Assembly: GCA_902581405.1 (NCBI GenBank)
Contig: CACHOJ010000001.1
Span: forward strand, 186,001 to 250,000
From: an uncultured Pelagibacteraceae bacterium
GTDB lineage: Bacteria; Pseudomonadota; Alphaproteobacteria; Pelagibacterales; Pelagibacteraceae
DNA length: 64,000 nt
Reading direction: 5' to 3'
The position numbers were made by a program, and so were the translations under genes. A model generated the notes under the pieces. It was given only the letters and a program-made list of their open reading frames with translations, ran no database searches and was not told the origin of the DNA. Shown here one piece after another: positions 2,751 to 18,467 of the stretch; position 1 is the first letter of the stretch; every line of letters begins with the position of its first letter.

Positions 2751-2809
2751 AAATTTTTTTGAATTTTGTATTAAAAACTAATTTATACAACTATATTTTA
2801 TCTAAATTT

Positions 2810-3565
2810 ATGCAAGAAATTTATGTAGACGATTTTGGTGACGGCTTTCCATTAGTTTTAGTTCATGGGTATCTAGGATCTTCAGAGATGTGGAAATTTC
2901 AAAAAGAATATTTAAGTAAATACTTCAGAGTTATTGCTCCAGCATTACCAGGATTTGGAGAAAGTCATGATGTTAAATCTTTAAATTCCATAAACTTAAT
3001 GGCAAAAAATATTTTAAAATTACTTGATAACAAAAAAATAGATAAATTTAATTTATTGGGACACTCAATGGGTGGCATGATAGTGCAAGAAATCGCAAGA
3101 ATAAGTGGAGATAGAATTAATAAATTAATCTGTTTTGCTACAGGTCCTATTGGCGATATTCCTGGAAGGTTTGAACCAATAGATAAATCTATTGAAAGAC
3201 TTCAAGTTGAAGGAATTAAAAATCATGTAGAAAGAATACCACCTAACTGGTTTGTAGAAGGCAAAAATTCAAAAAATTATTTTTTGTGCGAAAATGCTGT
3301 TAAGAATACATCAAAAGAGACTGCTAAAAATGCATTAATAGCAATGAGAGATTGGAATGGACTTGAAAATTTGAAAAATATTAAAAGTAAAACCCTTATT
3401 ATATGGGGAGATAGAGACAAATCATATAATTATGAGCAGATCTCTTTATTAAAAAAATTCATACAAGAAAGTCATTTAAAAATATTTGAAGGGTGTTGCC
3501 ATAATTTACATTTGGAGGAACCAGAGAAATTTAATCAAGCAGTGAAAGAATTTTTAATTAAATGA
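2810..3565 (+). CDS. Alpha/beta hydrolase
   Basis: VLVHGYLGSSEMW, GHSMGG nucleophile elbow, HNLHLEEP C-terminal His. Track start at 2759 is upstream; ATG at 2810 (MQEIYVDDFG) is preferred. Confidence 0.85.
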   Translation: MQEIYVDDFGDGFPLVLVHGYLGSSEMWKFQKEYLSKYFRVIAPALPGFGESHDVKSLNSINLMAKNILKLLDNKKIDKFNLLGHSMGGMIVQEIARISGDRINKLICFATGPIGDIPGRFEPIDKSIERLQVEGIKNHVERIPPNWFVEGKNSKNYFLCENAVKNTSKETAKNALIAMRDWNGLENLKNIKSKTLIIWGDRDKSYNYEQISLLKKFIQESHLKIFEGCCHNLHLEEPEKFNQAVKEFLIK

Positions 3566-4796: not shown

Positions 4797-5240
4797 ATGA
4801 CTAAATATAATAAATTAACAAGTTCATTTATAATATTAATCAGTATATTTTTTACGAATATAGCTTTAGGTGCGGATGTAACAGTGGAAATGCTTAATAG
4901 GCTTGATAAAGAATCAAATGTTTTTGAGCCTAAAATAGTAAGAGTTAACCCTGGTGATACAGTTCTTTGGAAGGCAACAGATAAAGGACATAACGTTGAA
5001 TTCATAAAAAAGGGTGTACCAGAAGGAGTTGGTAAGTTTAAATCAAAGTTTAATAAGGATGTTGAATATAAGTTCGAGGTCCCAGGAATTTATGCTTACT
5101 GGTGTACACCACACAAAAATATGGGAATGATTGGTTTTGTGGTTGTTGGCGACGACAAATCTAACCTAGATGCTATTAAGAAGTTGAGATTTTCATCAAA
5201 GTCTAAGAAATTAGCACCAGGTTTGATAGACCAACTATAA
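4797..5240 (+). CDS. Pseudoazurin / plastocyanin-type blue copper protein
   Basis: Signal peptide, V.PGDTVLW.A.DKGHNVE and YWCTPHKNMGMIG copper-ligand motif (Cys-x2-His-x4-Met). Confidence 0.9.
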   Translation: MTKYNKLTSSFIILISIFFTNIALGADVTVEMLNRLDKESNVFEPKIVRVNPGDTVLWKATDKGHNVEFIKKGVPEGVGKFKSKFNKDVEYKFEVPGIYAYWCTPHKNMGMIGFVVVGDDKSNLDAIKKLRFSSKSKKLAPGLIDQL

Positions 5241-5897
5241 ATCAGCAAATATTTTTGAGTTAAGACGTTTAACTTTTATAAATGAATCCTTGTACTTCCC
5301 AGAGCGGTGATAATCGCCTGGGAAGGCAATACATCTTAATTTAGCTTTTTTTGCATATTTTAAACTAATCTCAGTATCTTCAATTGCTAAACAATCTTTA
5401 TTTGAAAGTTTTAATTTTTTTAAACAATGTAAGTAAATATCAGTTTTATTATTAAAGTTTTTTATAATTTTGTTGTGTCCTATGTAATCAAAATCACTTT
5501 TTTTTAAATATTTATTTAAAGATATAAATACTGCATCAATATTATTTTTTGTAGTAGAGGTTGCAAAGCCAATTTTAATTTTATTTTTTTTACAATATTT
5601 GATTACATTAATTACTCCAGCGCGTGGCTTCAATTTATTCTTTTTTAAGTAATTATTAAAAATTAAAGTTTTTAAATTTCTAATTTTTTTTGCATTAACT
5701 AAAGTTTTTTTTTCTAGACTAAATTTTTTTACCCTTTTTTCCCCACCAGATTTTTTTAACATTGATTGATATAATTTTTTACTCCAATGCCATTTTAATC
5801 CTGAAATTTTAAAAGCTAAATTAAAGCAATTTCTTTGAATATTTGATGTTTCAACTATTGTGCCAATAGAACCAAATAATATGGCTTTAATTGCCAT
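5235..5897 (-). CDS. HAD-superfamily hydrolase (CbbY/phosphoglycolate phosphatase-like)
   Basis: GFATSTTK motif II, CLAIEDTEISLKYAKKA motif IV. First Asp motif is degenerate (ILFGSIGT). Confidence 0.75.
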   Translation of the reverse strand: MAIKAILFGSIGTIVETSNIQRNCFNLAFKISGLKWHWSKKLYQSMLKKSGGEKRVKKFSLEKKTLVNAKKIRNLKTLIFNNYLKKNKLKPRAGVINVIKYCKKNKIKIGFATSTTKNNIDAVFISLNKYLKKSDFDYIGHNKIIKNFNNKTDIYLHCLKKLKLSNKDCLAIEDTEISLKYAKKAKLRCIAFPGDYHRSGKYKDSFIKVKRLNSKIFADL

Positions 5898-6778
5898 TAC
5901 CCTTTAATTGCACCAGTAGTTAAGCCACTTATTACTTGTCTTTGAAAAAACATGACTAACATAAACAATGGTGCGGTTGCTGATACAACGGCTGAAACAG
6001 CCCACATTAAATTACCTTCATGCTGATTTGTACCAAGATAACTTTGAATTTTTGGAACCATTGTGTGGTTTTCTTGATTTAGTAATAATGCGGTGACTGT
6101 GAAGTCATTATATGCCAACATAAGACTAAACAAACCTGCTGTAATCACTCCAGGCCACATCACGGGCATAATTATATACCTAAATGCTTGAAAATATGAG
6201 CACCCATCAATTAATGCACTTTCATCTAATTCTTTAGGAACGGTTTTAAAAAAAGAATAAAGTAACCATAAAGTAAATGGTTGATTTATTGCAACTAAAA
6301 CCACAATTGTGGTTGGTAAAATCCCCCAAATTTGTAATTCAAAAAACGGAAAAAGATATCCAGAGACAAGTGTTATGTGTGGCATTGCTCTAAAAATTAA
6401 TGCTGCGATTAATATCCAAAAGGCATATCTTTCAGTAGATCTAGATAAAGCATAAGCACCTAAGGTTCCTAAGAAAAGTGATATAGAGACAACAAATACT
6501 GTTACTATTATCGTATTTCTTGATGCTTTCCAAAATTCACCCTCAGTCCAAGCTTCAGAATATGCTTTTGAAGTAAATTGGCCACCTGTTTCTAATAACG
6601 TATTAAATGCTGAGATCGCATACCACCAATCAGCTCTAGAAAAAAAATCTGCTCTTACTTTAAATGATCCCCAGAAAGTCCAAATAAATGGAAAGCATGC
6701 AATTAATAACCAAATAATTATAAAAGTTGTGTTAAATGTTTTAAGTGCATTCGATCTTTTGTCTAAACCATATTCCAT
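5897..6778 (-). CDS. Carbohydrate-type ABC transporter permease (MalG/UgpE family)
   Basis: ELDESALIDGCSYFQAFRYIIMPVMWPG EAA loop; 1-nt overlap with neighbour. Confidence 0.9.
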   Translation of the reverse strand: MEYGLDKRSNALKTFNTTFIIIWLLIACFPFIWTFWGSFKVRADFFSRADWWYAISAFNTLLETGGQFTSKAYSEAWTEGEFWKASRNTIIVTVFVVSISLFLGTLGAYALSRSTERYAFWILIAALIFRAMPHITLVSGYLFPFFELQIWGILPTTIVVLVAINQPFTLWLLYSFFKTVPKELDESALIDGCSYFQAFRYIIMPVMWPGVITAGLFSLMLAYNDFTVTALLLNQENHTMVPKIQSYLGTNQHEGNLMWAVSAVVSATAPLFMLVMFFQRQVISGLTTGAIKG

Positions 6779-7806
6779 TATCTTGCCGTCCTAAATTCTT
6801 TCCAAGTTCTAATTAATACTGGTGCCAACAATATGGCTATACCAATAATAGTCATCATAGAAGTTGCTGCTGCAGAACCAAACAAGATTACTTCTTCGTT
6901 GACTAAATTATCATAGATTAACCAAGATAAAGATTGAGCACTTCCTTCAGCGCTAAAACCAATTATTGGTTCAAAGACTCTAAAATTATCCATTAATGAT
7001 ATTAAAGCTACAAAAGTAACAACTGGATATATATGTGGTAGCACAATATGTCTAATTCTTTGGTATCTTGACGCTCCATCAATAATTGCTGCCTCAACAG
7101 GTTCTTGAGGTACAGTTTGTAATGCAGCATAGAAAACTACAAAAGCAAAAGGAGAATGATGCCAAATTCCATAGATAATTATCGTTATCCATGTAAGCGT
7201 TCTAGATGATTTTAATGATAGATAAGGATCTTCCATCATTAATTGCAAGTTTGCACCAATAATACCTTCTGCATCAATCATCCAAAATAAAACAAGAGAT
7301 CCAACTAATGGAGTAACAATCATTGGTAATATTGTACCAAATATTAATGGGCCTCTTATTTTTCTAGATATTGCATTTAAACTTAATGCTATAATAAATC
7401 CTAGTAATAAAACATTGGGAGTTACAAATAAACAATATGTTAAAGTAAATAAAAGGGCTTTATAAAAAGGTAAATTTGTAACTTGATTGATAAATTCTCC
7501 AAAGGAGTCAGTTTCTTTCCAAAAATCTGAAATTTGCTCAATAGCTAAGTGATTTCTATCAATATAAGTACCAAACCCGTTAAATTTGCCCAAAGGTTTT
7601 TCATCTCTCAATATAGAAGTTGCTTCCTGATCAACAACTATTGAAACTGTACATCCAAAAGGATCACATTTTTTAACTTCTTTTACTACTTGATCATGCT
7701 GGGCATAAAAAGATTGGATACCAGTAGATATAATTGGCAGACCAATAAACAAAATCATTGCCAAACCAGTTGGCAAGAAAAACCAGAAAAAAGTTTTATT
7801 TGGCAT
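6778..7806 (-). CDS. ABC transporter permease (MalF/UgpA family)
   Basis: EPVEAAIIDGASRYQRIRHIVLPHIYPV EAA loop; polytopic. Confidence 0.88.
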   Translation of the reverse strand: MPNKTFFWFFLPTGLAMILFIGLPIISTGIQSFYAQHDQVVKEVKKCDPFGCTVSIVVDQEATSILRDEKPLGKFNGFGTYIDRNHLAIEQISDFWKETDSFGEFINQVTNLPFYKALLFTLTYCLFVTPNVLLLGFIIALSLNAISRKIRGPLIFGTILPMIVTPLVGSLVLFWMIDAEGIIGANLQLMMEDPYLSLKSSRTLTWITIIIYGIWHHSPFAFVVFYAALQTVPQEPVEAAIIDGASRYQRIRHIVLPHIYPVVTFVALISLMDNFRVFEPIIGFSAEGSAQSLSWLIYDNLVNEEVILFGSAAATSMMTIIGIAILLAPVLIRTWKEFRTAR

Positions 7807-7812
7807 TTAAAA

Positions 7813-7838
7813 TTAAGTGGGGATTAAATCCCCACTTA
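7813..7838. terminator. Intra-operon hairpin between SBP and permease genes
   Basis: ttaagtggggat-ta-aatccccacttaa near-perfect inverted repeat in the 7806-7850 gap. Confidence 0.65.
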
Positions 7839-7849
7839 AATATTTATTT

Positions 7850-9076
7850 TTATAGAAAGCCTTGTTCTTTAGCTTTACTGATGTAAGCAGCTTCAACATC
7901 TTTCAATGCTTGTTCTGCAGACTCTTTACCTTGTAAGAACTCAACAATTTCGCTTCCTAATGCACCGTGCATTAAACCCATTTGTGGTAACATCGGGTAA
8001 GGTTTTGCTCCCATTTTTACCGCTTCAATCACACCAATAGATTTTGGTCCTGGTACAAAACCTTCAACTAACCAAACAGCTTGATCAGCAGCATCTGCTA
8101 CCATTTTTTTATTTGAAGCAGCATGAGCTAGAGCTATAAAAGTTGCTTCTGCATCACTGTCAGATCTATTTTTTGCTAAAGTAAATCCATCCCACCATAA
8201 TGTAGCTGCTGGAATATTTCCTCCACCAACAGTTGCTGGTCCAGTTAATTTAGTTGCTGCAGTAATTTTTGCATCACCTTCGTCATCTAATAAAGTTCCA
8301 GATCTTGATGCCCATAATGTCATAAGAGCAACTTTACCAGATTCCCACTCAACTTTAATTGCTTCACTATCATGAGTAAGATAATCAGGATTACTTAAGC
8401 TTGCTAACTTTTTAAGCATATTTAATGTAGCCACACCTTTTGCATTATTGATGTTTGGCTCAGCAGTTCCAGCTTTAAAGAATTCACCACCATGTCCAAT
8501 GAACATATTTACAAATTCTTCAGCTAAATTCCAACCAGCTTTATACGCAGCTGCATACGGATGTTGCATTTTACCTGATGCTCTTATTTTTTCAGATGCA
8601 GCAACAACTTCTTCGTAAGTTTTAGGTACAGGTATACCTAGTTCTTTTAAAACATCTTCTCTGTAATACAAATGTTGAGTGTTTGCCATAAAAGCAACAG
8701 CCATTACTTTTCCATCAATTGTAATTAATTGGGAGTCTTGTATTCCTTTTCCATACTTTTTAACTAGATCATCCATAGGTCTAATTAAATCTTGATTCAT
8801 TAGAGGAACAATTGAACTATTAGCTGCAATTCTTGCTGAAAATTCAGAAGGGTTTGCAGTTAAAGCTGGAACAGCAATTTTGTTGTGTTCTGATGAGTGA
8901 GTAACTTTAAAATCTGCACTTCCTTTACATCCTTTAGCTGTTTCTACAAATGTTCTTAATGCTGGAAAATCATTTGCTAAAATATTTATTGAACCACTTG
9001 GTTTACTGCAATGCCCATCAGCATATGCCGTTGTTCCAAAAAGCACGAACAATAAGGTTAATAGTATTTTTCTCAT
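7850..9076 (-). CDS. ABC transporter extracellular solute-binding protein (family 1)
   Basis: Signal peptide MRKILLTLLFVLFGTTAYA; SBP-like domain, adjacent to permeases. Confidence 0.88.
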   Translation of the reverse strand: MRKILLTLLFVLFGTTAYADGHCSKPSGSINILANDFPALRTFVETAKGCKGSADFKVTHSSEHNKIAVPALTANPSEFSARIAANSSIVPLMNQDLIRPMDDLVKKYGKGIQDSQLITIDGKVMAVAFMANTQHLYYREDVLKELGIPVPKTYEEVVAASEKIRASGKMQHPYAAAYKAGWNLAEEFVNMFIGHGGEFFKAGTAEPNINNAKGVATLNMLKKLASLSNPDYLTHDSEAIKVEWESGKVALMTLWASRSGTLLDDEGDAKITAATKLTGPATVGGGNIPAATLWWDGFTLAKNRSDSDAEATFIALAHAASNKKMVADAADQAVWLVEGFVPGPKSIGVIEAVKMGAKPYPMLPQMGLMHGALGSEIVEFLQGKESAEQALKDVEAAYISKAKEQGFL

Positions 9077-9153
9077 ATTTTCTCTCTTTTTTGGTTGTTT
9101 ATAATTATTCTAATAAAACTATATCTTTAAGAATTATCTAATAAAAGACATTT

Positions 9154-10281
9154 TTAAATCACTTTTGACGCAAGTCCTGATCCGATCACAAGTGACTCAA
9201 GTTTTTTATAAACTATATTCTCATCAACATTCCCAAATCCCGCAAATGTACTAAATCCACAATCAGTGCCGGCCATTAATTGGCTAGGATCTATTACTTT
9301 AGAAAAGGCTAAAATTCTATGTTTTACAACATCTGGATGTTCAATAAAATTGCTCGTGGACTCTATTACTCCTGGAATAATAATTTTATCTTTTGGTAGT
9401 TTTATATTTTCAAATACTTCCCACTCATGAGCATGCCTAGGGTTAGCAGACTCTATCAAATACATATTTATGTTGGCTTTAAAAGCTATCTCAATAATTT
9501 TATTTAACTCAATATCGTGAATGTGAGGTCCCTCATAATTTCCCCAACAAATATGCATTCTGACTTTAGATGGATCAATATTTTCTAATGACTTATTTAA
9601 AACCTCAACATGCTTATTTGCTCTTTTTAAAAAATTTTCCTCTGAAATGTCCTTATAAATCATATGCCTTGATAGAGCGAGGTCAGGGCAATCGATCTGA
9701 AGATAAAGACCACTATCAATAATTTTTTCATATTCGAATTTCATAATATCTGAAAGCTTTTCTAAATATTCATCATCATTTTTGTAAAATTTATTAGGTA
9801 GAAAATTACAAATAACTCCTGGTGATGGAGAATTCATAAAACCGTCTCTATGAGAATTTTTATTTAATGCATCTTTAAAATTAATAATATCTTTATTAAT
9901 TGAAACATTATCTTTTAATTTTAATTCACTTGTGCAACATGGTCTTTTATATGTCGGGGTTCCACCAGATTGTACAAGTTTTTTTTTAAAAGATGGAAAA
10001 TCATCCAAGTCTTTTGGAGCTTTTCTTTCACTTTCTCCTGAAAAACCTTCAACTCTATCTTTAATATATGTTGCATAACTAATTTTTGACATTTCTCCAT
10101 CACTTATTATATCAATTCCTGTATCAATCTGTTTTTTTACAACTTCTAAAACATTATTTCTTACAACTTCGTCAAATTTTTTTATGCTTATTTCTTCTTT
10201 ATTATCTTTCGAGGCTAAAAGAGTTGATAGTTCATTTGATCTGGGTAGGCTTCCGACATGTGTGGTTTTTATTTTAACCAT
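9154..10281 (-). CDS. Cobalamin-independent methionine synthase II (MetE C-terminal-like) Zn methyltransferase
   Basis: HVGSLPR start, RMHICWGN (HxC), ESANPRHAHEW, GTDCGFS Zn-site motifs; lacks the MetE N-terminal half. Confidence 0.85.
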   Translation of the reverse strand: MVKIKTTHVGSLPRSNELSTLLASKDNKEEISIKKFDEVVRNNVLEVVKKQIDTGIDIISDGEMSKISYATYIKDRVEGFSGESERKAPKDLDDFPSFKKKLVQSGGTPTYKRPCCTSELKLKDNVSINKDIINFKDALNKNSHRDGFMNSPSPGVICNFLPNKFYKNDDEYLEKLSDIMKFEYEKIIDSGLYLQIDCPDLALSRHMIYKDISEENFLKRANKHVEVLNKSLENIDPSKVRMHICWGNYEGPHIHDIELNKIIEIAFKANINMYLIESANPRHAHEWEVFENIKLPKDKIIIPGVIESTSNFIEHPDVVKHRILAFSKVIDPSQLMAGTDCGFSTFAGFGNVDENIVYKKLESLVIGSGLASKVI

Positions 10282-11242
10282 GATTTAATAAAATTTGTTT
10301 CCATATAGCAACTTCATCAAACAATACCCACTCCCTTATAATAGAGTTGGAGTAAAATTCTGCATGATTAATTCCCATTATAAATATTTTTTTATTTGAA
10401 GCTTTATCATAATCTATACTGTCGTTACTGTGAGCACCTTCTAAAAACCATCTAACTGATATTCTTGGATTTTGACCTGCTTCCTCTAAAAAACCTACAT
10501 GTTCTATAGTAAATTTTATGTTTGAAAATATTGCTTTTAGAGAATTCCATTTTTCTTTAATACTCTCTCTTCCATGACCAATTTTATTTCCAGGCCAAAA
10601 AATATTAGCAGCTCTATCATATCCTTCAAATTTATAATTATAATTAAAAATATTTTTAAGTATCTCTGAATATTTTTCAGCTTTTGATCCTTTTTTATAT
10701 CTCTCAGCTTCATAATTTGAACTTTTATCAGTTTCAAAATCGAATAACCTGGATGCAGTTGAAATTCCCCCTTCACTTTCAATTATTTTCTTTGCAAATT
10801 CTTTTGGAGAGTAACCAATCTGTCTTACCATCGCTCCTTGATCTCTAACAATCCACTCGTCATAAACTTGATTTTCTTTACATGCACAATCAGCAATTAC
10901 TCTATAGTAAATATCTTTTCCACTGGGCTTTCCATAAAAACCATCACCTAGGTGTGTTCCTTTACTTAATATTCTATGGGAAGAGTGATATCCAATTTCG
11001 TCATTACCATTCCAAATAACATCCTCACCTAACAATTGTCTGTTAGGAAATTCTTTTAAAGTTGCATATGTTGCGTCTATAACTGGTTTATTGCCATAAG
11101 TAACTCCAAATGGTGATCTTACTGGTATATCTTTTGTATAAAATTTACTGATAGACTCAACATCTTTACCTTCCCAAATTTGCTCAGTTATTTTTAATAT
11201 ATAGTCAGGAAAGTCTTTGTATTTCTTATCAAAACCTTTCAT
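10274..11242 (-). CDS. SnoaL-like / NTF2-fold protein with two tandem domains
   Basis: Repeated 'Y..I...I....' + 'G...I...W..L...F.' SnoaL pattern; MKGFDKKYKD at 11242 is the likely start (TAATG overlap with cupin gene). Confidence 0.65.
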   Translation of the reverse strand: MKGFDKKYKDFPDYILKITEQIWEGKDVESISKFYTKDIPVRSPFGVTYGNKPVIDATYATLKEFPNRQLLGEDVIWNGNDEIGYHSSHRILSKGTHLGDGFYGKPSGKDIYYRVIADCACKENQVYDEWIVRDQGAMVRQIGYSPKEFAKKIIESEGGISTASRLFDFETDKSSNYEAERYKKGSKAEKYSEILKNIFNYNYKFEGYDRAANIFWPGNKIGHGRESIKEKWNSLKAIFSNIKFTIEHVGFLEEAGQNPRISVRWFLEGAHSNDSIDYDKASNKKIFIMGINHAEFYSNSIIREWVLFDEVAIWKQILLNHG

Positions 11243-12186
11243 TATATTTGTGATACACAATTAAGAAGTGACTCATTTTTTTCGTTTATTTTAATATTAA
11301 TGTTAGATCCAACTGGAACTGAAAATGTATCTTTATAATCTAATTCAATGGAAGAATTGTCTGTTTCAATGTTCCATTTCCCTTTTTGTGAAAAAAAAAT
11401 TGTAGGTTTATCAAATTTTAGATTTTCAACTCTTCCTATTGTAGATTTAAAAGTGCATAAGCTAAATCCAGTATCTTGTTTTATAATTGGAGTTATTGTT
11501 TTGTTTTGAAAATTGTTACCTAAAATATGTGAAATTTTAACATTTTTTCCAATATTGCTTTCATTTTCAAGTCTCTTGTTAGTCTCGCATATATTTTTTT
11601 GTAATTGTTCTAGTTTATAATTATCAAATTTTGTAATCTCATCCTTTGATATAGGTTCAAGTAATTTTCTACCATTTGGAATATCTTGACTGTTTAAATC
11701 AATCAAAGAATTATCATCTAATAGCGCCATACCAGTTTGTTTAGCTTTTTTTAGAACCTCAGGTATCCATGTTACAATTCCAGGATCATCTCCACCAAGA
11801 ATAACAAACATAAAACCCTCCTCATCTCCTACATTTTCAAATGCTCTAAACATATTTGTTGGCATAGATATAATATCGCCCGGATTTAATATTGTCTCAT
11901 CTTCACCTTTAGAACCCCAATAAAACCTCCATTTACCTGAATAAATTATGAATACTTCAGCAGTCAAATGGCTATGAAGTCCAGAACCATTTAAGGGTTT
12001 TGCAGAAACAGCACCCAAGTTAAATCCATGTGGTTCTGATATTTTTATTGATTGATTTGCATCTTCAGCAACACCCGGTCCTAAAATAGAATAATTTTTT
12101 CTCTCTTTATGACCTTTCAATTTACCTTCAACAAAGGGTAAAGTACTAGGAGTTAAGTCCTCAAATTTAGCAAGTCTAATATTCAT
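11242..12186 (-). CDS. Cupin-domain protein (probable bicupin)
   Basis: GLHSHLTAEVFIIYSGKWRFYWG...LNPGDIISMPTNMFRAFENVGDEEG cupin motifs 1 and 2; second degenerate cupin at C-terminus. Confidence 0.8.
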   Translation of the reverse strand: MNIRLAKFEDLTPSTLPFVEGKLKGHKERKNYSILGPGVAEDANQSIKISEPHGFNLGAVSAKPLNGSGLHSHLTAEVFIIYSGKWRFYWGSKGEDETILNPGDIISMPTNMFRAFENVGDEEGFMFVILGGDDPGIVTWIPEVLKKAKQTGMALLDDNSLIDLNSQDIPNGRKLLEPISKDEITKFDNYKLEQLQKNICETNKRLENESNIGKNVKISHILGNNFQNKTITPIIKQDTGFSLCTFKSTIGRVENLKFDKPTIFFSQKGKWNIETDNSSIELDYKDTFSVPVGSNINIKINEKNESLLNCVSQI

Positions 12187-12238
12187 ATTTTTTTAATTAT
12201 AATATTGTGATACACGAATATTTCCAATAAATAAATAT

Positions 12239-13324
12239 ATGCAAATAGAGCAATTTGATACAGGACTTAAAACCAAAACAAACGTTAAAGATATTGTTCT
12301 TTCACCAGAGCAAAATTTTCGAAATAAAAATTTAATTAGAAGCTATTTAAATCAAATTGTAAATTTTGGATTAAAAGAAATAGATAAAAGTTTAGATAAG
12401 GCATTTATAAATGATGTAAAGGTCAATTGTTTTCATCCTTTAAATGAGTTTGTTGGAATAAAAAATTTAAAAGAGAAGCTTTGGACACCATTATTAGAAG
12501 CCTTCCCAGATTTAGAAAGAAGAGAAAACATTGTAGTAGGGGGAGCTTTTAGGGATAAAATTTTAGTAGGGTCATACTCAACGTTATCTGGATACTTTAA
12601 AAAGTCATGGTTAGGGATTAAACCAAATTTTAAAATGATTAATCTCAGATGTTGTGAAATACATGAACTTAATGAAGACAAAATAGTAGAAAGCCATATA
12701 TTAATTGACGTTATAGATTTCTTAAGACAATGTGGTATTTTTCCAATCAATCCATCGAGAGGATCTGAAGGAGCCTGGTTACCCCCAATAAATACTGATA
12801 GTGTAAATTTTTTTGAAAAAGATATTGAAATTTCAAATTCAAGTTTGAGACAAGCTCTTTCAATGAATAGAAGTCTTAATTTTAAACCTGAAACAGAGAA
12901 CCTATCTGATGAAGAATTAAAAAAAAGATTAATAAATCATCCTCAAAGAGAATATTGGCATGACAAAATGATATGGTATGGACCATGTGGAATAGGCACC
13001 TCAAGATCTTTAGAGGGTTTTATTGATATGCATCAGTTGCCATTTAGAAAATCATTTACTGAAAGAGATTATTTCAAACTTGGTCATTATTGTGAAATAG
13101 GGGATGGTAAATTTTCTTTATGTGCTGGTTGGCACAGTTTAGAGGCTTATTATGGTTCAAATGATTGGTTAGGTTTTACTGCAAATAATCAAAAACTAAC
13201 AATGAGAGTTATGGATTTTTATCACCATGATGAAGGAAAAATCCGTGAAAATTGGGTACCAATTGATATACTTCATATTTTAAAACAAATAGGCATAGAT
13301 ATTTTAGAAAAAGTTAAAAGTTGA
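12239..13324 (+). CDS. SnoaL-like polyketide cyclase-family protein (two tandem domains)
   Basis: NTF2/SnoaL-like pattern; divergently transcribed from the cupin operon. Confidence 0.65.
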   Translation: MQIEQFDTGLKTKTNVKDIVLSPEQNFRNKNLIRSYLNQIVNFGLKEIDKSLDKAFINDVKVNCFHPLNEFVGIKNLKEKLWTPLLEAFPDLERRENIVVGGAFRDKILVGSYSTLSGYFKKSWLGIKPNFKMINLRCCEIHELNEDKIVESHILIDVIDFLRQCGIFPINPSRGSEGAWLPPINTDSVNFFEKDIEISNSSLRQALSMNRSLNFKPETENLSDEELKKRLINHPQREYWHDKMIWYGPCGIGTSRSLEGFIDMHQLPFRKSFTERDYFKLGHYCEIGDGKFSLCAGWHSLEAYYGSNDWLGFTANNQKLTMRVMDFYHHDEGKIRENWVPIDILHILKQIGIDILEKVKS

Positions 13325-13325
13325 A

Positions 13326-14375
13326 ATGGCAAATATAAAATTCACAGGTGTTCATAAATCTTTTGGATCAAACAAGATTATAACTGATTTTAACCTGATG
13401 GGAAAAGATGACGAATTTCTTGTATTAGTTGGTCCATCTGGTTGTGGAAAGTCAACTTTATTAAGAATGATAGCAGGTTTAGAAAAAATTGATGAGGGCG
13501 AAATATTTATAAATGATCAAAAAATTAATGATCTTCATCCCTCAAAAAGACAAACTGCAATGGTATTTCAATCTTATGCTCTTTATCCACACATGAATGT
13601 TTATGAGAACATGTCATTTGGACTGAAGATTGAAAAGAAATCTAAGGAAGAAATTGAAACAAAAGTTATGCAAGCAGCAAAAATTTTAAAAATAGAGGAA
13701 TTACTTGAAAGAAAACCCAAGCAATTATCTGGAGGTCAGAGGCAAAGAGTTGCCATTGGACGTGCAATTACCCGAAATCCTAAAATATTTTTATTTGATG
13801 AGCCATTATCTAATTTGGATGCAGCTTTAAGAGCTGAGATGAGAGTAGAAATTTCAAAGCTTCATAACCAAATCAAAACCAATATGATTTATGTTACCCA
13901 TGATCAAGTAGAAGCAATGACTTTAGCAGATAGAATTGTAATATTAAATCTTGGAAATATAGAGCAAGTCGGAACACCTGATGAAATTTACAATAATCCA
14001 TCAAATATTTTTGTTGCTCAATTTATTGGGACACCAAAAATGAATATTTTACCATTAAATAATGAAAATATTATTTCAGATAATAAAATTAACTTTTTAG
14101 GGAACGAAATTACCTTTGAAAAAATTAAGTTTGATAAAAGTAAATATTTTATTGGAATAAGACCAGAACATTTTAATGTATCAAATGAGTCTAAATTTAA
14201 GTTCAAACCTAAAATTGAATTAGTAGAAAATTTAGGAAATGAAAAGATAGTTTATATGAGTAATGATAATTTAGAGCTTAGTGCAAAAATTTCTAGTCAA
14301 ATTGATTTTCAAAATGAGCTTAGATTTGATACTAAAGATATTTTTATATTTGATGAAAACGGAAGTAGAATTTAA
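13326..14375 (+). CDS. ABC transporter ATP-binding protein (MalK/UgpC family)
   Basis: GPSGCGKST Walker A, LSGGQRQRVAIGRA signature, FLFDEPLSNLDA Walker B; TOBE-like C-terminus. Confidence 0.95.
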   Translation: MANIKFTGVHKSFGSNKIITDFNLMGKDDEFLVLVGPSGCGKSTLLRMIAGLEKIDEGEIFINDQKINDLHPSKRQTAMVFQSYALYPHMNVYENMSFGLKIEKKSKEEIETKVMQAAKILKIEELLERKPKQLSGGQRQRVAIGRAITRNPKIFLFDEPLSNLDAALRAEMRVEISKLHNQIKTNMIYVTHDQVEAMTLADRIVILNLGNIEQVGTPDEIYNNPSNIFVAQFIGTPKMNILPLNNENIISDNKINFLGNEITFEKIKFDKSKYFIGIRPEHFNVSNESKFKFKPKIELVENLGNEKIVYMSNDNLELSAKISSQIDFQNELRFDTKDIFIFDENGSRI

Positions 14376-15315: not shown

Positions 15316-16602
15316 CTAATTTTGAAATCCGTACTTTCTTAGTCTCACATCCCCGGTTCTCGCATGAGCTTCCATGCCTTCATATCTTGAAATTCTCGCG
15401 CATGCTGCACCCACTTCTTTTGTAGACTCTTTAGTCATTCTTTGAAAACTTAATGTTTTAATAAATTTTCCAACAAACAAACCACCAGTATATTTTCCTG
15501 CTCCTTTAGTCGGCAAAATGTGGTTTGTACCAGAACATTTATCACCATAAGCAACTGTGGTCTCTTCTCCAATAAATAATGATCCATAATTTTTTAATCT
15601 GTCATGAAACCATTGAAGATTTTTAGTTTGAATTTCTAAATGTTCAGGGGCATATTCATCACTTATTTTAGCCATTTCTTCATCCGTATCGCACAGAATA
15701 ACTTCACCATAGTCTCTCCAAGCAGCGCCCGAGTTTTCTCTTGGTAAATCTGGCAGATCTGCAATAAGCTCTGGCACTCTTTGCATGACATATTCAGCAA
15801 GTTTTTTACTAGTCGTAAATAACCAAGCTGGAGAATTGTATCCATGCTCTGCTTGTCCAACTAAATCAAAAGCAACTAATTCTGGATCAGCTGTGTCGTC
15901 AGCTATCACAGCGATTTCTGTAGGACCTGCAAATAAATCAATCCCAACTTTTCCAAACAGAATTCTTTTTGACTCTGCAACAAATTGATTACCTGGGCCT
16001 ACAAGCATATCCGCAGGTGCGTTTCCAAAAAGACCATAAGTCATTGCGGCAATAGCTTGCACACCACCTAAATTCATTATTACATCTGCGCCACATAAAT
16101 CTGCAGTATAGACTATCGCAGGATGAACACCCACACCTGGTTTTGGAGAACTACAAACAATAATATTTTTTACACCAGCTACCTTTGCTGTTGTTACACT
16201 CATCACAGCTGATGCTATGTGTGCATATCTTCCAGCAGGAACATAACAACCTGCAGTATTAACTGGAATTAATTTTTGCCCAGCATATAAGCCATCTGAT
16301 AACTCTACTTCAAAATCCTGACCATAGTTTTTCAATTGTGCTTCAGCAAATTTTCTTACTCTTTCATGAGAAAATTGAATATCATCTTTAGTCTTAGGAT
16401 CTAAATTTTTTTTAATTTCTTCAATTTTTTCTCTCGTAACAATTACTTCACCTTCATATTTATCAAATTTTTTTGATAGTTCGATACATCCTTCTTCCTT
16501 AGTTTTTTCAATATCTTTAAGAATATTTTCAACAATCTCTCTGGTCTTTGTATCGTCAGTTGATGAAGTTTTTGGTGATTTTTTTAAGTAAGTTATTGCC
16601 AT
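15316..16602 (-). CDS. hpsN: Histidinol dehydrogenase-family protein, probably sulfopropanediol 3-dehydrogenase (HpsN-like)
   Basis: HisD-family motifs (PVNTAGCYVPAGRYAH, LVGPGNQFVAESKR, DLFAGPTEIAVIAD); EGMEAHARTGDVRLRKYG C-terminus typical of the HpsN branch; no histidine-biosynthesis neighbours, many sulfonate genes in window. Confidence 0.7.
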   Translation of the reverse strand: MAITYLKKSPKTSSTDDTKTREIVENILKDIEKTKEEGCIELSKKFDKYEGEVIVTREKIEEIKKNLDPKTKDDIQFSHERVRKFAEAQLKNYGQDFEVELSDGLYAGQKLIPVNTAGCYVPAGRYAHIASAVMSVTTAKVAGVKNIIVCSSPKPGVGVHPAIVYTADLCGADVIMNLGGVQAIAAMTYGLFGNAPADMLVGPGNQFVAESKRILFGKVGIDLFAGPTEIAVIADDTADPELVAFDLVGQAEHGYNSPAWLFTTSKKLAEYVMQRVPELIADLPDLPRENSGAAWRDYGEVILCDTDEEMAKISDEYAPEHLEIQTKNLQWFHDRLKNYGSLFIGEETTVAYGDKCSGTNHILPTKGAGKYTGGLFVGKFIKTLSFQRMTKESTKEVGAACARISRYEGMEAHARTGDVRLRKYGFQN

Positions 16603-16644
16603 ATTTAAATCCTAATTTAATTATTATTTTTTTTCAATATTCAT

Positions 16645-17556
16645 TTAATCTAAAGCTACCACAGCTGCAGCAATTGAGGCTAGTCTTGCTGTCGCATCAT
16701 CTGATCTACTTGTTATTACAACAGGGACTTTACCACCAACAACTACGCCAGCTGCACAAGCTCCCATAAAATATATCATCATCTTTACTAAAGCATTTCC
16801 AGCCTCTACATTTGGAACTAATAAAACATCTGCATCTCCTGCAACTTCATTTTTAATTCCTTTTATAGTTGCTGATTTTTTAGAAACACTATTATCAAAA
16901 GCTAAGGGGCCAAATATATCTGCGTTAAAATTTTCTTTGCTAGCCAATCTACAAATTTCCTTAGCATCAACAGAACTTTGCATACTATCTAAAACTTCCT
17001 CTGTGGCTGACAAAATAGAAACTTTAGGTCTTGCAATTTTTATTCTGTGACAAAAATCTATAACATTTTTTAAAATATGCATTTTTGTTTTGACATTAGG
17101 ATTAACATTTAATGCGCCATCAGTTATTATTAGTGGGCCATCTTCTTTATCTAGTGTCATATGCCAAATATGACTTAATCTAGTTTTTCCTATTAAGTTA
17201 TATTTTCTTAATAAAACTTCTTTCATTAACACATCAGTATGTATATGACCTTTGACTATAATCTTTACATCACCATCGCCTGCTAGTTTAGCAGCAACTT
17301 TAGCAGTATTATTCTCAATTGGTTCATGAACAATTTCATAATCAGAAATATCAAATTTTAATTCTTCAGCTATTTTTTTAATTTCTCCCTGATCACCTAT
17401 CAAAACAGGAACTATTAATTTTTCTTTAACGGCATCCATAACGGAGAGCATAGGTAGTTCCTTTCCAGCATTCACAATTGCAGCTTTAATTCCTCTCTTT
17501 TGATGAGCAATATCTAATAAATTAAGTGGACAAACTGTTGATTTATCTGAAAGCAT
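16645..17556 (-). CDS. pta: Phosphate acetyl/butyryltransferase
   Basis: KIIVKGHIHTDVLMK, LIITDGALNVNPN, DVLLVPNVEAGNALVKMMIYFMGACAAGVVVGGKVPVVITSRSD: Pta/Ptb family. Confidence 0.88.
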   Translation of the reverse strand: MLSDKSTVCPLNLLDIAHQKRGIKAAIVNAGKELPMLSVMDAVKEKLIVPVLIGDQGEIKKIAEELKFDISDYEIVHEPIENNTAKVAAKLAGDGDVKIIVKGHIHTDVLMKEVLLRKYNLIGKTRLSHIWHMTLDKEDGPLIITDGALNVNPNVKTKMHILKNVIDFCHRIKIARPKVSILSATEEVLDSMQSSVDAKEICRLASKENFNADIFGPLAFDNSVSKKSATIKGIKNEVAGDADVLLVPNVEAGNALVKMMIYFMGACAAGVVVGGKVPVVITSRSDDATARLASIAAAVVALD

Positions 17557-17618
17557 TAAATTTATATATACTAAAATGATTAAAAAACTAATATAGAAAT
17601 ATAGTATAAGGATAAAAA

Positions 17619-18467
17619 GTGGAAATAGTTACTAAAATTGCTCCAATCGCTTTAGCACTTATAATGTTAGGTCTAGGGTTAGGTCTAACTGGACGAGACT
17701 TTTTAAGAGTAATAAATAATCCCAAAGACTTTGTAATTGGATTTTTCTGCCAACTGTTACTTTTGCCGATAGTTGCGTATATTTTAATATTAATATTAAA
17801 CTTGCCTGTTGAGATCGCATTAGGCATTATGATTATTGCTGCTGCACCAGGGGGCGTTACTACAAATGTTATGACCAAATTTGCAAATGGAGATGTGGCC
17901 TTGTCCATTTCATTAACTGCAATAATTAGTTTAATTAGCATAATTTCAGTTCCATTTATTGTTTTAAAATCAGCTGATTTACTTGGTGTTACTAATATCT
18001 CAGCAGATATTACTATGACAGCAATTACACTAAAGATGGCATTGGTTGTTACTGTGCCAGTAATTTTAGGCATGATTATTAGAAAATTTGCAGATAATTT
18101 AATTTCCTCAAATCTTTCGATTGTTAATAAAATAACAACAGCTTTGTTCGTTATTGTATTTGCTGCAATTTGGATTGAAGAAAGAGAAAATATCTTTAAT
18201 TACTTAAAACAAGCAGGCTTTGCAGTATTAGTATTGAATGTTGTGATGATGATACTTGCTTATTATATAGCCAAATTCTTTGCAACCGGAATGAAGCAAA
18301 GAAAATGTATTGCTATAGAATGTGGTTTACAAAATGGAACTTTGGCAGTGTTTGTAGCAACACAAATGTTTAATGATATTGCTTATATGATACCAACAGC
18401 AGCATATGCTCTTATAATGTACTTAACTGGTTTCGCTTTAATTTTTATACTTCGAAGAGCTAATTAA
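17619..18467 (+). CDS. Bile acid:sodium symporter (BASS) family transporter
   Basis: LGLGLTGRDF..., MIIAAAPGGVTTNVMTKFANGDVALS and ECGLQNGTLAVFVA motifs; GTG start. Confidence 0.88.
   Translation: MEIVTKIAPIALALIMLGLGLGLTGRDFLRVINNPKDFVIGFFCQLLLLPIVAYILILILNLPVEIALGIMIIAAAPGGVTTNVMTKFANGDVALSISLTAIISLISIISVPFIVLKSADLLGVTNISADITMTAITLKMALVVTVPVILGMIIRKFADNLISSNLSIVNKITTALFVIVFAAIWIEERENIFNYLKQAGFAVLVLNVVMMILAYYIAKFFATGMKQRKCIAIECGLQNGTLAVFVATQMFNDIAYMIPTAAYALIMYLTGFALIFILRRAN

Follow-up and report, generated by a model that had tools for sequence, protein, structure and literature searches.

What does a run of nine genes in a SAR11 (Pelagibacter) genome, encoding an ABC importer, a MetE-like methyltransferase, two SnoaL proteins, a bicupin, and a HAD-superfamily protein, do, and do these genes belong together? 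The genes lie at positions 5235–14375 of a 64-kb stretch (the window) of a 1.12-Mb genome that is 78% complete; the genomes closest to it are from single cells of Pelagibacteraceae, and their proteins reach 98–100% identity. A first-pass annotation, made from the sequence alone, had described the region as an uncharacterised catabolic island, and this description holds: all nine open reading frames (ORFs) are present, and Pfam and NCBIfam both backed the domain identity of each. The annotation had also read the importer as complete and of the sugar/polyol class and the zinc site of the MetE-like protein as intact, which agrees with our results, and had known of no named pathway with this gene set; our search, which was limited to open-access literature, found no published match.

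We conclude that the block is a real catabolic module; most likely, it serves to break down by oxidation a sugar- or polyol-like compound that the cell has imported. With modest confidence, we favour the view that positions 5235–13324 are a co-inherited SAR11 catabolic cassette for the uptake and degradation of a single class of small compound that bears a methyl group and resembles a sugar or polyol. The known nutrient set of SAR11 is small, and each addition alters ideas on what fuels the ocean's commonest cells; the block is an apparent dedicated nutrient-use system in part of one Pelagibacteraceae genus.

Gain and loss of the block within SAR11

The eight genes from the HAD gene to the second double-SnoaL gene (SnoaL-2) are one gained or lost unit. 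In two related genomes with empty sites (L163 and L164), ~100 bp replaces this stretch; the left match ends at window position 5228 in L163 and 5243 in L164, and the right match resumes at 13312. The malK, EamA, HpsN, and Pta genes are still present in both genomes despite the missing block. Because malK is retained in genomes without 5235–13324, we treat it as shared rather than cassette-specific; of the island as originally drawn, to 14375, the eight genes to 13324 stand, and malK is not part of the unit. The reverse case occurs in a SAR11 group (L147–L153) in which the rest of the block is present and malK was not found at the site.

The first double-SnoaL gene (SnoaL-1) and the MetE-like gene were each found in 30 of 297 Pelagibacteraceae genomes, 29 of which are common to both; the two mismatched genomes (one each) are explained by truncated gene fragments. 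Among 127 good-quality Pelagibacteraceae genomes, 29 carry the block, all within one genus. Gene order is maintained across about 60 SAR11 loci, far beyond chance, and the MetE-like gene is always included in the SAR11 version. Co-occurrence in other genomes had been named in the first-pass annotation as a check on the island, and the genes do travel together, in SAR11 and beyond.

A wider cassette outside SAR11

Of the 234 good-quality genomes that we sampled from Alphaproteobacteria, 25 contain homologues of SnoaL-1, which also occur on plasmids. A larger set of cassette genes is present in Roseobacters, SAR116, rhizobia, and Acidimicrobiia. The Roseobacter version, which is strongly conserved, comprises the importer, a LacI regulator, several SnoaL proteins, an HpsN-like dehydrogenase, a short-chain dehydrogenase/reductase (SDR), the bicupin, the MetE-like protein, a PcaD-like alpha/beta hydrolase, and RraA. 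Related sets occur in Paracoccus, Ensifer, Vibrio pelagius, Halobellus, Priestia, Deinococcus, Pantoea, Roseibium, SAR116, and Acidimicrobiia; some are partial and only about 30% identical, with the more distant, partial forms in Vibrio, Deinococcus, Priestia, Pantoea, and Halobellus. The gene set that had been listed from the window was correct, but the reduced SAR11 version had hidden the wider members, namely the HpsN-like dehydrogenase, SDR, lactonases, aldolase, and LacI. Many other bacteria of the sea, of soil, and of leaves have relatives of the block. Culturable Roseobacters, among them Ruegeria sp. THAF33 and AD91A, carry the whole cassette, so that the question of its function is testable now.

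To count gene content outside SAR11, we used 37 loci with a length of at least about 13 kb that were picked by SnoaL match; being found via one gene, these loci are a biased sample in which the SnoaL count is set by construction. They encode a cupin (33 loci), LacI (32), MalF/MalG (31), a HisD-family protein (30), a substrate-binding protein (30), an SDR (27), the MetE-like protein (23), an alpha/beta hydrolase (21), and an aldolase (19), and a single cassette can hold up to five SnoaL genes. The pyruvate-type aldolase belongs to one of two families that are unrelated to each other: Roseobacters have RraA, and Priestia, Deinococcus, and Pantoea have HpcH. Lactonase-type enzymes of three families recur (SMP-30, fuconolactonase-like amidohydrolase, and PcaD-like hydrolase). 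From the two aldolase families and three lactonase types, we argue for a route in which the compound is oxidised, a lactone or ring is opened, and pyruvate is released. The wider cassette shares its SDR, lactonases, and pyruvate-type aldolase with non-phosphorylative sugar-acid pathways (dehydrogenase, lactonase, and HpcH/RraA aldolase); we know of no such pathway that includes SnoaL, bicupin, HisD-type, or MetE-like enzymes.

Two loci from small-genome alphaproteobacteria (L038 and L039) have the SAR11 layout, but with a cassette HisD gene directly after SnoaL-2. Because these loci keep the SAR11 layout plus HisD, SAR11 may have lost its cassette HisD gene. A plasmid of Vibrio pelagius (L035) carries a minimal version, with the importer and four double-SnoaL genes adjoining sarcosine oxidase and purU genes. 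In Phaeobacter inhibens DOK1-1 (L167), transposase genes flank an apparent decayed remnant of the cassette, in which malK and SnoaL-1 can still be recognised from their annotation.

Importer and binding protein

The subunit set of a CUT1 (MalFGK/Ugp) ABC importer is complete, with one SBP_bac_1 protein, two BPD_transp_1 proteins, and an ATPase that scored above the UgpC cut-off; the C-terminal OB_MalK domain of the ATPase was weakly matched. Subunit set and folds are like those of MalFGK/UgpABCE-type sugar/polyol importers, such as the one with the sulfoquinovosyl-glycerol-binding protein SmoF; however, similarity is low (best E 3e-24, profile), and here the ATPase gene lies outside the gained/lost block. 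Among proteins of solved structure, those most closely related to the binding protein have sugar, sorbitol, maltose/trehalose, or sulfoquinovosyl-glycerol as ligands. The first-pass annotation had guessed at a methylated osmolyte or polyol derivative, and such a compound may be the substrate. Based on these relatives and on the sugar-acid-type enzymes of the cassette elsewhere, a predicted ligand of the sugar/polyol kind is favoured over betaine. The importer class, the LacI regulators, and the sugar-acid-type enzymes lead us to infer a sugar- or polyol-like substrate for the module as a whole.

A route for dimethylsulfoniopropionate (DMSP) or betaine was rejected; the binding-protein relatives are sugar-type, and the genes for DMSP and sarcosine oxidase that lie close to the cassettes of Marinovum and Vibrio do not recur elsewhere. 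A homarine pathway was also considered and found no support.

The transporter genes (window 5897–9076) have a history that differs from that of the enzymes in one group of loci (L078, L081, L092, and L094). The L078 group is near the window group in the trees of SnoaL-1, bicupin, and HpsN, whereas in the binding protein, MalF, and MalG it is farther from the window than are otherwise more distant groups. This disagreement between enzyme and transporter relationships suggests that the transporter module has been exchanged.

MetE-like methyltransferase

Canonical MetE combines an N-terminal domain with a C-terminal catalytic domain in about 750 aa. The MetE-like protein (375 aa) has PF01717 alone, without the N-terminal domain, and it scored far under the NCBIfam MetE equivalog cut-offs. 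Across 13 sequences from SAR11, Roseobacters, sphingomonads, Rhodococcus, and Halobellus, the zinc ligands H243, C245, E277, and C341 are invariant, as are S11, E63, and D197, and the homocysteine-site residues do not vary from SAR11 to Halobellus. The nearest solved structure, 1ypx, has no assigned function. In its zinc ligands, its homocysteine-site residues, and the absence of the N-terminal domain, the protein is like core-MetE and other MetE C-terminal-domain methyltransferases; it differs from core-MetE in its linkage to importer and SnoaL genes and groups with proteins of Roseobacters and sphingomonads. Because this gene is always in the SAR11 version (and optional elsewhere), the SAR11 compound probably carries a methyl group, which the MetE-like enzyme would pass to homocysteine.

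Alternatively, the MetE-like protein could be a general methyl-tetrahydrofolate methionine synthase that travels with a sugar uptake cassette and supplies a lineage without MetE or MetH. According to a 2025 paper (PMC12478193), SAR11 is without MetE, MetH, and MtgBCDE and depends on DMSP, glycine betaine, or outside methionine; in addition, a 44% identical Croceicoccus protein sits with metF, folD, and purU beside aromatic-degradation genes. We nevertheless consider this alternative unlikely, as the MetE N-terminal domain is absent and the gene is gained and lost together with SnoaL-1 and absent from other SAR11 genomes. Moreover, Phaeobacter inhibens without mtgCDE is a methionine auxotroph even though a core-MetE homologue is present, and core-MetE homologues of doubtful function have been noted in marine bacteria (PMC12478193).

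Plasmids of Croceicoccus and Sphingobium (L126 and L128) encode a 44% identical MetE-like protein near aminomethyltransferase-type genes; one NTF2-like gene and a gene for an IclR regulator accompany it. On the Croceicoccus plasmid, protocatechuate 4,5-cleavage genes, including ligK, share this neighbourhood with metF, purU, and folD.

Double-SnoaL proteins and bicupin

The AlphaFold2 model of SnoaL-1 (pLDDT 90) has two SnoaL/NTF2-type domains and matches the single-domain proteins IdmH, AclR, and SnoaL2 (target TM about 0.7–0.8); among the matches listed for this model, none covers both domains. Each half of SnoaL-1 has the fold of the SnoaL/AknH/SnoaL2/IdmH polyketide cyclases and of limonene-epoxide hydrolase, but here two domains are fused and no polyketide genes lie nearby; we recognised no polyketide synthase genes in the examined Roseobacter, SAR11, and other cassette loci. 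The two double-SnoaL genes scored 2e-17 and 1e-18 against Pfam SnoaL. The likely start of SnoaL-1 is the ATG at 11242 (conserved MKGFD) and not the TTG at 11260 of the first-stage ORF.

In the bicupin, the N-terminal motif H71, H73, and E77 is invariant. Its predicted structure (pLDDT 89) is closest to quercetin dioxygenase, oxalate decarboxylase, and seed storage bicupins, and these model-based matches are too general to fix a function. A role as DMSP lyase was rejected, given a match to DddK of just E=0.009 and the absence of the motif-2 histidine.

Proposed function and alternatives

In the proposed SAR11 route, the compound would be taken up via the binding protein and MalF/MalG, powered by the shared MalK-type ATPase. 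In the cytoplasm, the MetE-like zinc enzyme would transfer the methyl group of the compound to homocysteine, yielding methionine, and the bicupin and the two double-SnoaL proteins would perform isomerase, lyase, or ring-opening steps. Bacteria with the fuller version would oxidise the skeleton by means of the SDR and the HpsN-like dehydrogenase, open it with the lactonases, and release pyruvate with the RraA- or HpcH-type aldolase; the order of these steps is conjectural. The reduced SAR11 set probably borrows general enzymes, perhaps including the neighbouring HpsN. If the methyl group does reach homocysteine, SAR11 gains one more methyl source. The block would supply a context for a core-MetE homologue in a lineage reported to be without MetE (PMC12478193).

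Several points weigh against this proposal. Outside SAR11, 14 of the 37 loci have no MetE-like gene, so a methyl group would not be common to all substrates. Zinc-thiolate methyl transfer from an ordinary alkyl ether would be chemically hard, so the donor would have to be activated. In the bicupin, the usual motif-2 histidine is replaced by an invariant R114. The RraA-type aldolase is absent from the source genome (78% complete), and the cassette-type HisD was not found in 197 SAR11 genomes, a set that contained no positive control; without these two enzymes, a complete route is not visible in the SAR11 genome.

Every enzyme class of the full cassette would also have a place, on paper, in a scheme in which the substrate is a mycosporine, a mycosporine-like amino acid, or (4-deoxy)gadusol. 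SnoaL proteins or amidases would free the amino acid, the HpsN-like dehydrogenase would turn the ring CH2OH into COOH, the MetE-like enzyme would take the enol-ether methyl group, and the bicupin would cleave the resulting reductone like acireductone dioxygenase; RraA-type aldolases of the LigK kind would then convert the product, 4-carboxy-4-hydroxy-2-oxoadipate, to pyruvate and oxaloacetate. The cassette RraA is distantly similar to LigK (4.5e-07), the bicupin model is nearest to quercetin dioxygenase, albeit among many bicupins, and several carriers come from coral, a solar saltern, leaves, a high-altitude site, and offshore Arctic seawater. However, the scheme is purely deduced, other carriers come from soil and roots, the bicupin is without the standard metal set, the recurring lactonases are unnecessary, and the open-access literature yielded no support. 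The expected demethylase, the MetE-like enzyme, occurs in just 23 of the 37 loci, even though all mycosporines bear an O-methyl group; a different demethylase might act in the others. We regard such a substrate as very improbable. It would equally be a long shot to claim the cassette as the first known bacterial pathway for full breakdown of mycosporine/gadusol sunscreens in the surface ocean, with the O-methyl group feeding SAR11 methionine synthesis.

HpsN and flanking genes

Adjoining the block (window 15316–18467) are HpsN, a phosphate acetyl/butyryltransferase-like gene (Pta), and a putative bile-acid/sodium symporter family gene. HpsN aligned to sulfopropanediol dehydrogenase at 7.5e-161, compared with 1e-71 to histidinol dehydrogenase. 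The cassette HisD of Roseobacters is likewise closer to HpsN than to HisD, yet it is a paralogue with only 48% identity to SAR11 HpsN. These similarities, the position of HpsN beside the block, and the distant similarity of the binding protein to SmoF would fit a reading in which the cassette fed the HpsN–Pta segment by importing a C3-sulfonate or a sulfoquinovose derivative and not a methylated sugar. We consider this quite unlikely: HpsN is found in 162 of 297 Pelagibacteraceae genomes, most without the cassette, so it works independently; the cassette paralogue appears to form a separate group; and the MetE-like enzyme would be left unexplained. Compared with the HpsN sulfopropanediol pathway, the cassettes outside SAR11 include an HpsN paralogue and HpsN itself adjoins the SAR11 block, but no sulfonate genes were recognised within the cassette. 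As a core gene independent of the block, HpsN was rejected as a member of the SAR11 cassette. Under the methyl-bearing sugar or polyol reading that we prefer, it is possible that the neighbouring HpsN stands in for the cassette's own HpsN-like dehydrogenase in SAR11.

Gene layout and minor variants

The minus-strand genes are closely packed in the order bicupin, SnoaL-1, metE-like, binding protein, hairpin, malF, malG, and HAD (Table 1). TAATG junctions occur at malF/malG, malG/HAD, and cupin/SnoaL-1, in keeping with the translational coupling of HAD to the permease that the first-pass annotation had described, and the SnoaL-1 and metE-like genes overlap in ATGGTTAA. SnoaL-2 and malK are transcribed opposite to the remaining seven genes, starting from the divergent intergenic region; the SnoaL genes had been called tandem, and two different double-SnoaL genes are indeed present, but they are divergent. 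A promoter scan of this 52-bp region gave promoter-like matches at the frequency expected by chance in A+T-rich DNA.

Table 1. Features of the block and its HpsN neighbour (window coordinates).
Feature	Coordinates	Strand	Evidence and remarks
HAD-superfamily phosphatase/phosphoglucomutase-like protein, 220 aa	5235..5897	-	HAD Pfam 6e-14; TAATG junction with malG; in SAR11 form of cassette
MalG-type permease	5897..6778	-	BPD_transp_1; TAATG with malF
MalF/UgpA-type permease	6778..7806	-	BPD_transp_1
Intercistronic hairpin, 12 bp stem, about -17 kcal/mol	7813..7839	-	Between binding-protein gene and malF
MalE/UgpB-class substrate-binding protein, 408 aa, putative N-terminal signal peptide	7850..9076	-	SBP_bac_1 3e-15
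MetE C-terminal-domain-like zinc methyltransferase, 375 aa	9154..10281	-	Meth_synt_2 2e-14
SnoaL-1, two-domain SnoaL/NTF2 protein	10274..11242	-	SnoaL Pfam and second SnoaL stretch
Bicupin, 314 aa	11242..12186	-	Cupin_2 2e-7
Divergent intergenic region, 52 bp	12187..12238	.	Between bicupin and SnoaL-2
SnoaL-2, second, different double-SnoaL protein, 361 aa	12239..13324	+	SnoaL Pfam and second SnoaL stretch
MalK/UgpC-type ATPase	13326..14375	+	ABC_tran 9e-34; UgpC NCBIfam model above cut-off
HpsN (sulfopropanediol dehydrogenase) neighbour	15316..16602	-	Core SAR11 gene

Hairpins commonly occur after binding-protein genes, and the one preceding malF is kept in SAR11 relatives, with variation in the loop and stem end. 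A few genes separate the block from a PcaD-like alpha/beta hydrolase gene (window 2759–3565), which adjoins it directly in some SAR11 lineages (L106 and L107); this gene is also retained in L163 and L164, which are without the block. One SAR11 lineage (L097, 10980–11670) has an extra gene encoding a 222-aa NAD(P)-binding (SDR/NmrA-like) protein between SnoaL-1 and the MetE-like gene, and a SAR11 subclade (L100, L107, and L156) has a second MalF/MalG-type importer beside the cassette, between HpsN and malK.

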